This document shows positions 4,811 through 48,239 of a stretch of 64,000 nucleotides of DNA, in pieces. The DNA comes from Oceanobacillus damuensis (GTDB taxonomy: Bacteria > Bacillota > Bacilli > Bacillales > Amphibacillaceae). Numbering within the stretch: the first letter of the stretch is position 1; each line of letters starts with the position of its first letter. Location of the stretch: positions 1 through 64,000 of the forward strand of contig NZ_LQNF01000010.1 of the NCBI RefSeq assembly GCF_001618145.1, given 5' to 3'. The translations under genes were made by a program, and so were the position numbers. A model generated the notes under the pieces. That model was not told where the DNA came from, made no database searches, and was given only the letters and a program-made list of their open reading frames with translations.

Positions 4811-4958
4811 ATTTATATATTCATCAAAGCGAGAGATATGATTGGTAGTTTTTATAGAAATAGATTGCGATTGCAAAATTCAGTATTATATTATTTTTTA
4901 TCGATCTATTGTTTATTTGGAAAACCTCTGTTAAAATTCAAAAATCAACTTCATACGA

Positions 4959-5029
4959 TCCTTATATATCTATGGAAATATGGTCCATAAGTCTCTACCT
5001 GGCAGCCGTAAAATGCCGGACTATAAGGA
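4959..5029 (+). ncRNA. Purine riboswitch aptamer, guanine class
   Basis: All three helices are readable: P1 TCCTTATA/TATAAGGA, P2 TATGGA/TCCATA closed by loop AATATGG, and P3 CTGGCA/TGCCGG closed by a GCCGTAAAA loop. J2/3 is TAAGTCTCTAC. The specificity base in J3/1 (ACTAT) is C, which pairs guanine/hypoxanthine; adenine aptamers carry T there. It precedes a terminator hairpin (5063-5108) and nupG, so ligand binding should shut the gene off. Confidence 0.93.
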
Positions 5030-5062
5030 AAGTCAGAGCGCGACATGGGACACGTTTACCTT

Positions 5063-8317: not shown

Positions 8318-8363
8318 AAAAAAGCCAAAGAGACAACTTGATCAGTTCCTCCCAGGCTTTTAT
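8318..8363 (-). terminator. Terminator of the guanidine riboswitch
   Basis: On the minus strand AAAAGCC at the aptamer 3' end pairs with GGCTTTT followed by more T, with G-U extended pairing inside. The stem shares bases with the aptamer, so guanidine binding should prevent it forming. Confidence 0.75.
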
Positions 8364-8434
8364 CCTTCCGTGACACAGCAATGCTGTGAGTTTTCTCTCG
8401 GACCAGTCCAACAGTTATGTTGCGGAACCCTAGA
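8345..8434 (-). ncRNA. Guanidine-I (ykkC) riboswitch
   Basis: Read on the minus strand it shows the ykkC-class conserved blocks in order: CTAGGGTTCCGCA, GACTGGTCCGAGAGA and ACGGAAGGATAAAAGCCTGG. It precedes the SMR pair ykkC-ykkD and overlaps a terminator, so it should act as an ON switch for guanidinium export. Confidence 0.95.
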
Positions 8435-8440
8435 AAACAT

Positions 8441-8778
8441 GTAACCTATGTAGTTACCATATATTATATAATTTATTAAATCATAGTTCAAGATGAAAGA
8501 GTTTGGCTTTTTGACTAACTGATTACCTGTTCGAAATGAAAAGGTCTGAGGGTTTTGGCCTGCTTTTGTTTTTGCGGAAGGATTAAAAAGTCTAAATTGT
8601 GCACTTGGTATTTGTTAAGGATGTGTAAATTTTTGTGTAAAAATTGTTTTATGTCGATATTTGTATTATTATTTACTATTAGATTGTACACACAATTTTT
8701 AGTGGCAGTTTTTGGGCAAAAAAGGAATTTTAAATATGGTAAGCAGAAACTAAATAAGAATAATTTGGAGGAATTTAA
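8441..8778. other. Divergent spacer, ykkC leader / codY upstream
   Basis: No gene supported. It holds the ykkCD promoter region on the left and an AT-rich codY upstream region on the right. I could not pick one promoter with confidence. Confidence 0.5.
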
Positions 8779-42925: not shown

Positions 42926-43150
42926 ACAAGCGCACAGAAATTGGGAAAAGCGCACAGAAATTGGGAAGGCTGATGTAATGGATTTGTCTATAATTTTTGG
43001 CTGAGAGGGGGATGATTTACTTTGGGGTGGCTGAAGTCTTGTGCTGCGATAATCGTGAACTATGGCTTAAAATTGTTTACTATGGCATATCCCTTATATT
43101 ATGGCAGTTTTCTAGTGGGTACCGCCCGAACAACCTCTTTAATAAAAAAA
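42926..43150. other. Spacer with a 20-bp tandem duplication
   Basis: AAGCGCACAGAAATTGGGAA occurs twice without gap (42928-42947 and 42948-42967) at the broken edge of the laccase remnant. GTGAACTATGGC (43055) and GTTTACTATGGC (43075) are inverted relatives of the 3618-3720 repeats. Confidence 0.7.
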
Positions 43151-43154
43151 TGAA

Positions 43155-43183
43155 TTGACATGTGTATGGTAATCGATTAGTAT
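43155..43183 (+). promoter_or_regulatory. Promoter of the metK-spe operon
   Basis: TTGACA (43155-43160), 17-bp spacer, TAGTAT (43178-43183). It places the transcript start near 43190, giving a leader of about 230 nt before metK. Confidence 0.75.
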
Positions 43184-43189
43184 TATTCT

Positions 43190-43383
43190 CAGCATGAATA
43201 AAGTCTATCTTATTAATAGCCGTTGAGACGAGGGGTCGAAGAAGCGGTGGCAAACCAGTCCAAATCAATGATTTGGATATGGGGCCCAACCTGAGCGCAG
43301 AGCTTTTCTGTTCTGTGAACAATAAGAGGATAAGCAGCTGATATTAATCGAAGCTTTCCTTAGGTTGTGGGAGAGCTTTTTTT
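43190..43383 (+). ncRNA. Structured leader RNA of the metK-spe operon, unknown class
   Basis: A closing stem TCTTATT (43208-43214) / AATAAGA (43321-43327) encloses a conserved-looking interior with the hairpin TCCAAAT-CAATG-ATTTGGA (43259-43277), extended by flanking CCA/TGG. A terminator AAGCTTTCC / GGGAGAGCTT with seven T (43351-43383) precedes the metK ribosome binding site. This is the layout of a transcription-attenuation leader. I do not find the S-box core, T-box or other riboswitch motifs that I know. Confidence 0.65.
43351..43383 (+). terminator. Attenuator terminator before metK
   Basis: AAGCTTTCC and GGGAGAGCTT form a 9-bp stem followed by TTTTTTT, only 36 nt before the metK start, upstream of its ribosome binding site. 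Confidence 0.85.
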
Positions 43384-43419
43384 GTGCCTGAAACAGGAAA
43401 TTTTTAGGAGGTATTTATA

Positions 43420-44607
43420 TTGGCGGAGAAGATTTTATTCACTTCCGAATCGGTATCTGAAGGGCATCCAGATAAAATTGCAGATCAGATTTCTGATGCT
43501 GTACTGGATGCAGCACTGGAACAGGATCCGTTCTCAAGGGTAGCCTGTGAAGTGTTTACAACTACAAATACGGTGATAGTAGGCGGAGAAATCACTACTG
43601 AAGCCATTTTAGATATTGAAAAAATCGCAAGGGACACCTTGGTGGAAATCGGTTATACCGATGACAGACTTGGGATAGATGGGCGCACGTGCAATGTACA
43701 GGTGCTTGTACACACGCAATCCTCTGATATAGCAATGGGAGTTAATTCATCAAGCGATACGAAGGCAATTGGTGCCGGCGATCAAGGGATTATGTTTGGA
43801 TATGCAACAGATGAAACAGCCAATTTGATGGCTTTGCCAATTGAAATGGCACATTCGCTTGTAAAAAAGGCTTCGCAATTAAGGAAAAGCGGAGAATTTA
43901 AATGGGCACGGCCTGATATGAAGTCACAAGTAACGATTGATTATACAAATCCCGAGAAACCCGAAATTGACACAATCTTAATGTCAATCCAGCATGATGG
44001 GGATTATGATAAAGAGGCATTTGAAGCGTATGTAATTGAACATATCATTAAAGAAACTGCAGGTGAGTTTCATTTAAATAAAACATTTCGGATTTTGATT
44101 AACCCAACAGGACGATTTGTTGTTGGTGGTCCCCACGGTGATGCCGGCCTGACTGGACGTAAAATCATAGTGGATACGTATGGCGGAGCTGCCCGTCATG
44201 GCGGCGGTGCATTTTCAGGTAAGGATTGTACAAAAGTTGACCGTTCCGCAGCATATGCTGCCAGATATGTGGCGAAAAATATCGTTGCAGCGGGACTGGC
44301 AAAAAAATGTGAAATCCAGTTGTCGTATGCCATTGGTATAAGTGAGCCTATCAGCATTGCTATTGAGACATTTGGAACCGAAAATGTATCTCATGAGCAG
44401 TTGCTGACAGCAATAAGGCAGATTTTTGATTTATCACCAGCAGGCATCATCGATATGCTAGACTTGCGCAAACCGCAATTTAAACAAGTAGCAGCCTATG
44501 GCCATTTTGGCAGAAGTGACATTGATGTGCCATGGGAAAGAACAGATAAGGCAGAGAATATTAAAGCGTTTTTGGCAACCTATGAATTTGCTGGAGTCGG
44601 CCAATGA
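43420..44607 (+). CDS. metK: S-adenosylmethionine synthetase
   Basis: A 395-residue full-length Met[20 protein letters not shown], the [15 protein letters not shown] hexapeptide region, [31 protein letters not shown] and [16 protein letters not shown]. It makes SAM from methionine and ATP. TTG start with AGGAGGT. It is the first gene of a polyamine operon, overlapping speA by 4 bp, an unusual place because metK is normally monocistronic with an S-box. It may be a second, pathway-dedicated copy or the only one; the window cannot say. Confidence 0.95.
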
Positions 44608-46103
44608 TTCACGGTGTAAAAAATGTTCCTGTCAAAAGCAATCCATTGGAAGACCAGGGAAAAATGCCATTGTTCGAAGCTTTGGTCCACTATGCAAAGC
44701 AGGATGTTACACCGTTTGATGTTCCGGGGCATAAAATGGGCGCACAACTAGATCCATTGAAAGAAGTTCTTGGTGATATGGCGATGCGAATGGATGTGAA
44801 TTCCATGAAAGAGCTTGATCTCTTAAGCCATCCGCAAACCGTAATCAAGGAAGCACAAGAGCTTGCAGCGAAAGCTTTTGGAGCGGACCATGCATACTTT
44901 CTCGTTAACGGAACAACGATTGGCATCCTTGCGATGATGATGGCTGTCTGCAAACCGGAAGATACGTTGCTTGTACCAAGGAACGCCCATAAGTCCGTCA
45001 TGGAGGGGATTGTCCTTAGCGGTGCTAGACCGGTATTTATTCAACCAGAAATAGACTACCATTTTGGTATTTCTCATAATGTTTCTGTTGCGAACGTTAA
45101 AAGAACACTAGAGGAGCATCCTGAAACGAAGGCATTGCTTGTCACCTATCCGACATACTTTGGGACAATGAATGATCTGACGGAAATTTGCCGTATTGCC
45201 CATGAAAAAAATGTAACGGTCATTGTTGATGGAGCACATGGAGCACATCTTGGCTTTATGCCAGATGAAATGACAGATCCGATGTCGGCTGGTGCAGATG
45301 CAGTAACGGTAAGCATGCACAAGACTGGTGGCTCGTTAACGCAGAGCTCCTTGCTTCTAATCAATCAAGACAGAATACCAGCAAAAATGATACAAAAGGT
45401 TTTGAATATGCTGCAGACCACGAGTGCAAATTACCTGCTGATGAGTTCACTGGATGTCGCCAGAAGAGAGTTGGTATTGCATGGAAAACAGCGTTATCGT
45501 GAATTAAAGACAGTCGTGGAAGAAGCGATAAAAGCAATTGAATCAGGCTCTCGCTATGAAGTATTGAAAGCTGATTATGTAAAAGACCAGTTTCATCAAA
45601 GCTATGACTGGACGAAGTTAGTCATCCGGGTGAATGGAATTGGATTAACCGGATTTGAGGTCTATCGTCTTTTGAAGGAAAAATACGGTGTTCAAATGGA
45701 GCTTGCTGAAGGGTATGTCATTATGGGAGTTATCAGCGGTTCCGACACGAAAGAATCAATTGACAGACTTGTCTTTGCCTTAAGGGAAATAGAAAAAAGC
45801 TTTGGAAAAAATGACGTACTCATGTCAACACAGGTAATCGCCGATCAGGTTAATGAACTTGTATTATGCCCCAGAGATGCCTTTTATAGGGAGCAGGAAT
45901 CGATTGCAATCGAGGATGCTGTCGGCCGAATCAGCGCAGATACATTGATGATTTATCCACCAGGTATACCGCTTGTCATTCCAGGAGAACGAATTTCAGA
46001 AGATGTGGTCCGGCAATATCATTATTACGAGGACACCTTTGGAAATGTCCTTACAGAAACGAAAGAAGCGAACCATATTACAGTTATAAAGGAGAATGCA
46101 TAA
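44604..46103 (+). CDS. speA: Arginine decarboxylase (Orn/Lys/Arg family, SpeA)
   Basis: A 499-residue fold-III PLP decarboxylase: [59 protein letters not shown] with the PLP lysine K240, and a C-terminal domain [20 protein letters not shown] plus [15 protein letters not shown]. Matches B. subtilis SpeA in length and order. Arginine to agmatine is inferred from the speB agmatinase in the same operon; lysine decarboxylase is the alternative. Confidence 0.92.
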
Positions 46104-46538
46104 ATGGGATTGGAAATAACAGCATTAGGGAGACATGTGTTGATTGAGTTTTACGGCTGCCCGAGTGACATCATTGAGAATAATGCATTGATTGAAAAGT
46201 TTATGCGGGGGGCGGCAGATTACTCTGGTGCCACAATTGTGGAATCTGTTTTCCATCATTTCAATCCATATGGAGTTTCGGGAGCGGTTATCATTGCAGA
46301 ATCGCATCTGACAATCCACACATGGCCGGAATATGGTTTTGCTTCTGTTGATGTCTATACTTGCGGTGATTCGGTAAACCCATGGAAAGCAGCAGACTAC
46401 TTGTCTGAAAAACTGCAGGCCAAAAAGACAGAATCATTTGAAGTACCGCGCGGCATGGTTGATAAAATCCGCCAATTCGCGGAACAGGAGATTGAAGAGG
46501 TAAAAGTGAAACCTCAGGAACTAGAAGGTGTTAAGTAA
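46104..46538 (+). CDS. speD: S-adenosylmethionine decarboxylase proenzyme
   Basis: A 144-residue SpeD of the short Bacillus/Thermotoga type. It self-cleaves before Ser67 in AESHLTIHTWPEYGFASVDV to make the pyruvoyl cofactor; the active-site His (TIHTW) and Cys (VYTCG) are present. Product: decarboxylated SAM, the aminopropyl donor. It starts directly after the speA stop (no gap) and its stop overlaps speE by 1 bp. The C-terminus is about 18 residues longer than in B. subtilis. Confidence 0.95.
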   Translation: MGLEITALGRHVLIEFYGCPSDIIENNALIEKFMRGAADYSGATIVESVFHHFNPYGVSGAVIIAESHLTIHTWPEYGFASVDVYTCGDSVNPWKAADYLSEKLQAKKTESFEVPRGMVDKIRQFAEQEIEEVKVKPQELEGVK

Positions 46539-47392
46539 TGAAATGGTATACCGAACAATGGAGTACAAATTGTAAATTTTCCATTGCATATGATAAAAAG
46601 TTATATAGTGAAAAGACGCCTTATCAGCAAATTGATTTTTACGAGGGAGAAGAATTTGGTACCTTTTTTACTTTGGACGGTTTGATGATGGTAAACGAAA
46701 AAGATGAATTTATTTACCACGACATGATTGTGCATCCTGCATTTGCAACAAACCCACGGATTAAAAAGGTATTGATCATTGGTGGGGGAGATGGCGGTAC
46801 AGCCCGTGAAGTGCTGCGTTATTCCAATGTGGAAGAAGTAGTAATGGCAGAAATCGACGAGCGTGTTTTCCGTTTATGCCAGCAATATTTGCCTGTTACT
46901 GCAAATGGTGTGGAAGAAGACAGCAGAATGGAATTGCGTTTTGAAGATGGGTTGGAATATGTAAGAAATGCACCAGATCATTCCTTTGATCTCATTCTAG
47001 TAGATTCAACCGATCCTGTTTCAGTTGGCGAAGGTCTATTTACAACTGAGTTTTACAAGGAATGTTATCGTGTATTAAATGAAGATGGTATTTTGATCAA
47101 TCAGCATGAATCCCCGTATTTTGCTGAATATGCCGAGAACATGAAAAAAGCTCACCGGAAAATTAAAGATATTTTTCCGCTGACACATGTTTATCAATAC
47201 CATATGCCAACATACCCTTCAGGTCACTGGTTGTTTGGATTTGCATCTAAATCCATTGATCCCCTGAAGGACATGGATGCAGAGGCCTGGAACAATTTTG
47301 GGATCAAGACGAAGTATTATAATACAGATCTTCACAGAGGTGCCTTTGGTTTGCCGAATTACGTGAAGGAGGCACTTCATCGTGAGAAATAA
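46538..47392 (+). CDS. speE: Spermidine synthase
   Basis: A 284-residue aminopropyltransferase: IGGGDGGTAREVLRYSNVEE (SAM-like binding loop), MAEIDERVFRLCQQYLP, LILVDSTDPVSVGEGLFTTE (catalytic D-S-T-D-P-x-G), QHESPYF and YQYHMPTYPSGHWLFGFASK. It joins putrescine and decarboxylated SAM to spermidine. Overlaps speD by 1 bp and speB by 11 bp. Confidence 0.95.
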   Translation: MKWYTEQWSTNCKFSIAYDKKLYSEKTPYQQIDFYEGEEFGTFFTLDGLMMVNEKDEFIYHDMIVHPAFATNPRIKKVLIIGGGDGGTAREVLRYSNVEEVVMAEIDERVFRLCQQYLPVTANGVEEDSRMELRFEDGLEYVRNAPDHSFDLILVDSTDPVSVGEGLFTTEFYKECYRVLNEDGILINQHESPYFAEYAENMKKAHRKIKDIFPLTHVYQYHMPTYPSGHWLFGFASKSIDPLKDMDAEAWNNFGIKTKYYNTDLHRGAFGLPNYVKEALHREK

Positions 47393-48239
47393 ACGTAACA
47401 TAAGCACCTTCATTGGCTGTGAAAGCTCCTATGATGAAGCAAAGATTGTTCTGTTTGGCGTGCCGTTTGATGGGACGACAAGCTTTCGCCCAGGGACCCG
47501 CTTTGCAATGCAGGCAATCAGACAGGACTCCTATGGGCTGGAGACCTACTCGCCATATTTGAATAAAGATCTGGAAGAGCAAGCGATTTTCGATGGTGGC
47601 GATCTGGAGTTACCCCTAGGAAATACTGCCAAAACGATGAATCAGATCTTAGAATATACCGAGGAAGTATTGCAGGACGGTAAGAAATTCCTGATGGTAG
47701 GCGGAGAGCATCTGGTAAGCTTGCCAACAATTCAGGCTGCATATGAAAAATATCCGGATTTGCACCTTATTCATATTGATGCCCATACTGATCTGCGTCA
47801 TGATTATCTGGGGGAAAAACTTTCACATGCATCGGTTATCCGCCGTTGTCATGAGTTTCTTGGTGACGGACGAATTTTCCAGTTTGGAATTCGCTCCGGA
47901 CTCAAGGAAGAGTTCGAATGGGCGAAGGAGCACACGTATCTCGAAGCCTTTTCACTGGATACCCTGAAAGATAAAATACGTGAACTGCAGGACGTTCCTG
48001 TCTATATCACGATTGATCTGGACGTCCTTGATCCAGGTATTTTTCCCGGCACCGGAACACCGGAACCAGGCGGGATCACATACCGTGAATTATTGGTCGC
48101 CATCAATAGGCTTCAGGAACTGAATCAGATTGTAGCTGCTGATGTTGTGGAATTGTCTCCGCCCTATGATGCCTCAGGAGCATCGACAGCTATTGCCTGC
48201 AAAACGGTTAGAGAGCTGCTGCTTACGCTGGCAGATTAA
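47382..48239 (+). CDS. speB: Agmatinase
   Basis: A 285-residue ureohydrolase with the manganese ligands in GGEHLVSLP, HIDAHTDLRHDYLGEKLSHA and TIDLDVLDPGIFPGTGTPEP. It splits agmatine to putrescine and urea. GTG start with AAGGAGG lying inside the end of speE. Last gene of the operon; a terminator-like hairpin follows at 48339-48396. Confidence 0.94.
   Translation: MRNKRNISTFIGCESSYDEAKIVLFGVPFDGTTSFRPGTRFAMQAIRQDSYGLETYSPYLNKDLEEQAIFDGGDLELPLGNTAKTMNQILEYTEEVLQDGKKFLMVGGEHLVSLPTIQAAYEKYPDLHLIHIDAHTDLRHDYLGEKLSHASVIRRCHEFLGDGRIFQFGIRSGLKEEFEWAKEHTYLEAFSLDTLKDKIRELQDVPVYITIDLDVLDPGIFPGTGTPEPGGITYRELLVAINRLQELNQIVAADVVELSPPYDASGASTAIACKTVRELLLTLAD

Follow-up and report, generated by a model that had tools for sequence, protein, structure and literature searches.

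What controls the block of polyamine genes that begins with metK in Oceanobacillus damuensis? The stretch of DNA that we analysed (the window) is 64,000 nucleotides long and corresponds to bases 1–64000 of its contig, NZ_LQNF01000010.1. A reading of the letters alone (the original prediction) had seen the layout of a riboswitch in the leader that precedes metK. Two questions arise: to which class this leader belongs, and how it would act on the genes behind it.

Layout of the leader and the genes behind it

The predicted riboswitch-like layout was confirmed. We found a promoter-like site, a closing stem, internal hairpins and a terminator (Table 1), and the leader (43190–43390) folds at −65.6 kcal/mol with a z score of −3.43, none of 200 shuffles being as low. 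The terminator ends 36 nucleotides before the metK start codon (43383 and TTG at 43420, respectively), exactly as had been claimed. Taken alone, the promoter match is at chance level (1 found versus 1.3 expected in shuffles); its −35 element TTGAC is invariant in nine of nine aligned relatives, window included, and the full TTGACA occurs in six of the nine. For the terminator-like hairpin at 43350–43379, the corresponding figures are 1 found and 0.4 expected in shuffles. Upstream of the leader, at 42930–42970, a short unit, gcgcacagaaattggga, was spotted by eye twice, head to tail.

Polyamine biosynthesis genes lie directly 3′ of the aptamer, as in the spermidine riboswitch class: metK, a decarboxylase gene, speD, speE and speB. 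We call the decarboxylase SpeA here; its score against the lysine decarboxylase (LdcC) model is far under the cut-off of 968, and its assignment is at the level of the family only.

Table 1. Positions, in window coordinates, of features of the metK leader and operon.
Feature	Position	Strand	Basis or remark
Promoter-like site, TTGACA-17 nt-TAGTAT	43155–43183	+	inferred from sequence
Spermidine riboswitch aptamer (SAM-I variant), very probable assignment	43207–43328	+	extent of RF00162 match
P1, 5′ strand; pairs with 43322–43327	43208–43213	+	
P2 with internal loop; 43219–43224/43243–43248, inner stem 43227–43229/43235–43237	43219–43248	+	
P3; 43249–43251/43284–43286, then 43255–43266/43270–43282	43249–43286	+	double-sided pair changes
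P4; 43296–43303/43310–43317	43296–43317	+	5 of 10 pairs of alignment helix changed on both sides
P1, 3′ strand; end common to antiterminator	43322–43327	+	
Antiterminator; 43326–43330/43357–43361 and 43332–43335/43353–43356	43326–43361	+	predicted, minimum-free-energy fold
Intrinsic terminator; hairpin 43350–43360/43369–43379, then T run	43350–43383	+	conserved in aligned relatives
metK, methionine adenosyltransferase, TTG start	43420–44607	+	TIGR01034, 564.5 bits
Orn/Lys/Arg decarboxylase family protein (SpeA)	44604–46103	+	best NCBIfam match LdcC, 100.4 bits
speD, S-adenosylmethionine decarboxylase	46104–46538	+	TIGR03330, 150.4 bits
speE, spermidine synthase	46538–47392	+	NF002010, 369 bits; TIGR00417, 288.2 bits
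speB, agmatinase	47382–48239	+	TIGR01230, 290.8 bits

The aptamer, SAM-I and the relatives of the leader

Scanned with Rfam at default settings, the window gave nothing at the leader, only a guanidine-I riboswitch (8347–8444, minus strand, 85.7 bits) and a purine riboswitch (4942–5043, plus strand, 80.8 bits) elsewhere, both over their gathering scores. In a permissive scan, SAM-I (S-box, RF00162) aligned to the leader over all 108 model positions with 40.5 bits and an E value of 5.2e-8. The default scan misses the leader because this score falls under the RF00162 gathering score of 44.4 bits, by 3.9 bits. Two further matches of the permissive scan, sR35 (E 3.1) and MIR159 (E 8.9), were rejected as chance-level.

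The leader shares the P1–P4 architecture and much of the framework of SAM-I, but it differs in its score, in its core words, in the polyamine genes 3′ of it and in the published ligand of its kind, spermidine. The genome also contains 13 canonical SAM-I switches, with scores of 75.2–97.7 bits against RF00162. In the window leader J1/2 reads TAATAG, whereas the canonical forms end in GAG. Among the 42 readable variants (see below; row L052 is cut by the end of its locus, and row L046 is without J1/2 in the alignment), the position of the canonical G holds T in 41 and A in one; it is G in 13 of 13 canonical switches. We take this G to be a contact of SAM in the SAM-I structure. The P3 internal loop is GGCAAACC in the window, with one extra A, in contrast to GGCAACC or close forms in the canonical switches. 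The original prediction that the S-box core is absent thus holds for the canonical core words but not for the four-stem architecture, which spans the full RF00162 model.

Could this be an ordinary SAM-I aptamer, merely diverged, through which SAM controls a second metK? The full-length RF00162 match, the position of metK as first gene and the canonical SAM-I leader before the genome's other metK would all suit such an element. Nevertheless, we consider it highly improbable, given the loss of the J1/2 G in every readable variant, the additional base in the internal loop of P3, the wide separation in score from the canonical switches that this genome also carries, and the published result that SAM fails to trigger the member of the class that was assayed (PMC10853860).

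Relatives of the leader were collected in several ways. Of 159 family genomes searched at the DNA level, 12 contained matches, and nine genomes, window included, aligned over most of the aptamer; five short matches of 19–24 nucleotides (L026–L030) were left out of the alignment. With these nine sequences, whose mean column identity is 86%, RNAalifold recovered the four-way junction, and for 12 of 44 pairs one or more of the sequences had both partners changed. We built the covariance model R1 from the same nine sequences. It matches the window at 43203–43335 with 150.5 bits, a score obtained on one of its training sequences. Across 397 genomes of the order, R1 found 11 places in 10 genomes, four with at least 128 bits and seven with 26.8–47.5 bits. 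The seven weak places are not variants: one is a canonical SAM-I switch of the O. damuensis genome itself, and the other six (L035–L040, in other genomes, R1 26.8–42.8 bits) were rejected as all of them pass RF00162 at 68.8–94.5 bits.

A wider set of 43 named loci was gathered by a P2-core pattern, so that conservation of the P2 core within it is not independent evidence. R1 separates variant and canonical SAM-I cleanly. It scores 93.8–153.5 bits on all 44 variants (the 43 named loci and the window), although seven of the named loci appear to be training sequences whose R1 scores are not independent; on the canonical SAM-I switches of the O. damuensis genome it gives at most 47.5 bits for 9 of 13 and no reported match for the other four. 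The named loci belong mostly to Trichococcus, Sporosarcina, Lysinibacillus, Viridibacillus, Rummeliibacillus, Kurthia, Oceanobacillus and Ornithinibacillus. Kurthia, Metalysinibacillus and Sedimentibacter appear in neither the genus list nor the table of PMC10853860. The aptamer of the Sedimentibacter sp. SX930 locus (L083) is nearly identical to those of Trichococcus, and this record may be misnamed.

Conservation among the leaders of relatives is evident in an alignment of all 44 sequences, which was fitted to the structure of R1. Pairing is possible in 95.0% of 1870 cells, compared with at most 52.0% when the structure is slid by 1–3 columns; both partners change in 18 of 43 pairs, and covariation scores 0.361 versus 0.158 in shuffles, 0 of 500 being as high. 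Covariation supports chiefly P3 and P4. The inner six pairs of P1 and the inner stem of P2 are nearly invariant, and pairing is weak at the outer end of P1, where alignment columns 1, 3 and 4 are unpaired in 16–18 of 43 rows.

When the loci were searched with the five proteins of the window operon, the first reference gene 3′ of the switch was metK in 31 of the 44 loci and the decarboxylase gene in 12; the one locus without a gene call, L076, ends 12 nucleotides after the aptamer. The metK match of L053 is a fragment (41% identical). In L018, the metK behind the switch (1720–2903) matches in two reading frames and looks broken. It looks broken in L033 also, where only a stretch resembling the first 106 residues (41% identical) precedes the decarboxylase.

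The published spermidine riboswitch and the predicted switch

Salvail, Balaji, Roth and Breaker (Cell Rep 2023; PMC10853860) described a SAM-I variant with 13 representatives as the spermidine riboswitch. According to the legend of their Figure 1, it departs from SAM-I in J1/2 and in the P3 internal loop, the same two regions that are altered in the window leader. In the class, the altered nucleotides occupy positions that matter for SAM binding. Among the records tabulated in that paper is Oceanobacillus damuensis NZ_LQNF01000010.1/43200-43335, metK. Our R1 match (43203–43335) is offset from this entry by +3 at the 5′ end and 0 at the 3′ end, and the same offset was seen in all six other table records compared (NZ_HE610978.1, NZ_LDPV02000046.1, NZ_LDUE01000005.1, NZ_CCRF01000060.1, NZ_LILB01000001.1 and NZ_AZUC01000044.1). 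The metK leader is one of the two main experimental examples of that paper: O. damuensis metK RNA was in-line probed as “135 metK”, with KD values for spermidine of ∼670 and 730 µM. In T. ilyis ldcC RNA, spermidine and not SAM triggers termination, with a T50 of ∼214 µM and with purified RNA polymerase alone, and SAM, MTA and various other amines are inactive (PMC10853860). A lacZ fusion of T. ilyis ldcC was also assayed in B. subtilis, in the wild type and in speD and speE mutants (PMC10853860).

We conclude that the leader belongs, almost certainly, to the spermidine riboswitch class and is very probably the paper's O. damuensis metK example itself, an identity inferred from the coordinates. 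Record coordinates, gene, four-stem fold and the alterations of J1/2 and of the internal loop of P3 are common to the two, a terminator-based off switch is predicted for the leader as well, and we found no difference between them. Binding of spermidine and rejection of SAM are results of that paper.

The leader is real and was rightly singled out, but it is already known. The original prediction was right that the metK and spe genes are preceded by a riboswitch that works by attenuation and belongs to a diverged class; the possibility that the class was new is superseded by its publication in 2023. The view that the leader was unassigned and unrelated to the S-box was mistaken, given the RF00162 match and the published name of the class, and its nomination as an undescribed element falls in substance with the same covariance search, in which Rfam's SAM-I model matches just short of its gathering score. 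Among the ligands that had been suggested (SAM, arginine, agmatine and spermidine), spermidine is the published one (PMC10853860). A title-level literature search from 2023 on gave no report of a structure for this class among the matches listed.

That the leader represents a new class, differing in fold or recognising arginine, agmatine, putrescine or MTA, is still less probable than a SAM sensor. The gene context suits several ligands of the polyamine pathway, and no Rfam model matches the leader at its gathering score, but against the idea stand homology to SAM-I, the coordinates of a published and tested record, and the inactivity of MTA and various other amines on T. ilyis RNA; the spermidine probing of metK RNA refutes it in substance (PMC10853860). 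A protein-dependent or leader-peptide attenuator that merely resembles a riboswitch, which would share the intrinsic terminator and the upstream promoter-like site, is extremely improbable in view of the covarying four-stem aptamer homologous to SAM-I and of the spermidine-dependent termination of T. ilyis ldcC with no protein but the polymerase (PMC10853860).

How would a spermidine riboswitch at this position act? In the unconstrained fold (−65.6 kcal/mol), the predicted antiterminator pairs 43326–43335 with 43353–43361; when P1 is forced, the terminator hairpin (43350–43360/43369–43379) forms instead, at −64.5 kcal/mol. The antiterminator fold is thus favoured by only 1.1 kcal/mol without ligand or constraint, and P1 and the terminator are each predicted to compete with the antiterminator. 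Because the 3′ strand of P1 overlaps the antiterminator, a ligand that keeps P1 paired would release the terminator. At low spermidine, the end of the P1 3′ strand and the bases following it would base-pair with the terminator's 5′ half, and polymerase would read through into metK, the decarboxylase gene, speD, speE and speB. At high spermidine, the ligand, bound in the altered SAM pocket, would stabilise P1 and block the antiterminator; the hairpin at 43350–43379 would then form and transcription would stop before metK. The net effect would be a feedback shut-off of polyamine synthesis. A mechanism of this kind, linking ligand, P1 and terminator, was proposed and supported for T. ilyis (PMC10853860).

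Two metK genes and what the variant means

The O. damuensis genome contains two matches to PF02772 (metK), the second at G000:C19:2019-2372. This other metK has a canonical SAM-I switch upstream (75.2 bits), and the two MetK proteins are 58.6% identical. Two PF02772 matches were present in 10 of 11 genomes with the variant switch, G178 having one. We also chose five genomes of the same genus that had no variant match in the family DNA search; four have one PF02772 match and one (G066) has two. The second metK of G066 (L107, G066:C4:39279-42629) is 43% identical to the window metK, and neither Rfam (at E 0.01) nor R1 matched anything in its locus.

These copy counts, the canonical SAM-I switch at the other metK and the 58.6% identity suggest a SAM synthetase dedicated to polyamine synthesis. 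We tentatively raise the possibility, which on balance we doubt, of a dedicated module, in which a divergent second SAM synthetase would supply SAM for polyamines under spermidine control while the housekeeping metK is kept under canonical SAM-I. The apparently broken metK at the switch in two relatives speaks against that metK being indispensable. If the module is real, the supply of SAM would run in two arms, regulated by a pair of sister aptamers that share a fold.

A candidate that seemed new when read without tools is now settled, and it exposes an annotation trap: the Rfam 15 scan reported no spermidine family at the leader, and of 10 of the 43 related loci scanned with Rfam, two were labelled SAM at the place of the variant and eight had no label there. 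Beyond the published record, our analysis adds further members and genera and the divergent second metK at the switch. The wider locus set is a starting point for asking how a single aptamer fold came to change its ligand and how two metK genes per cell divide between SAM and spermidine control.
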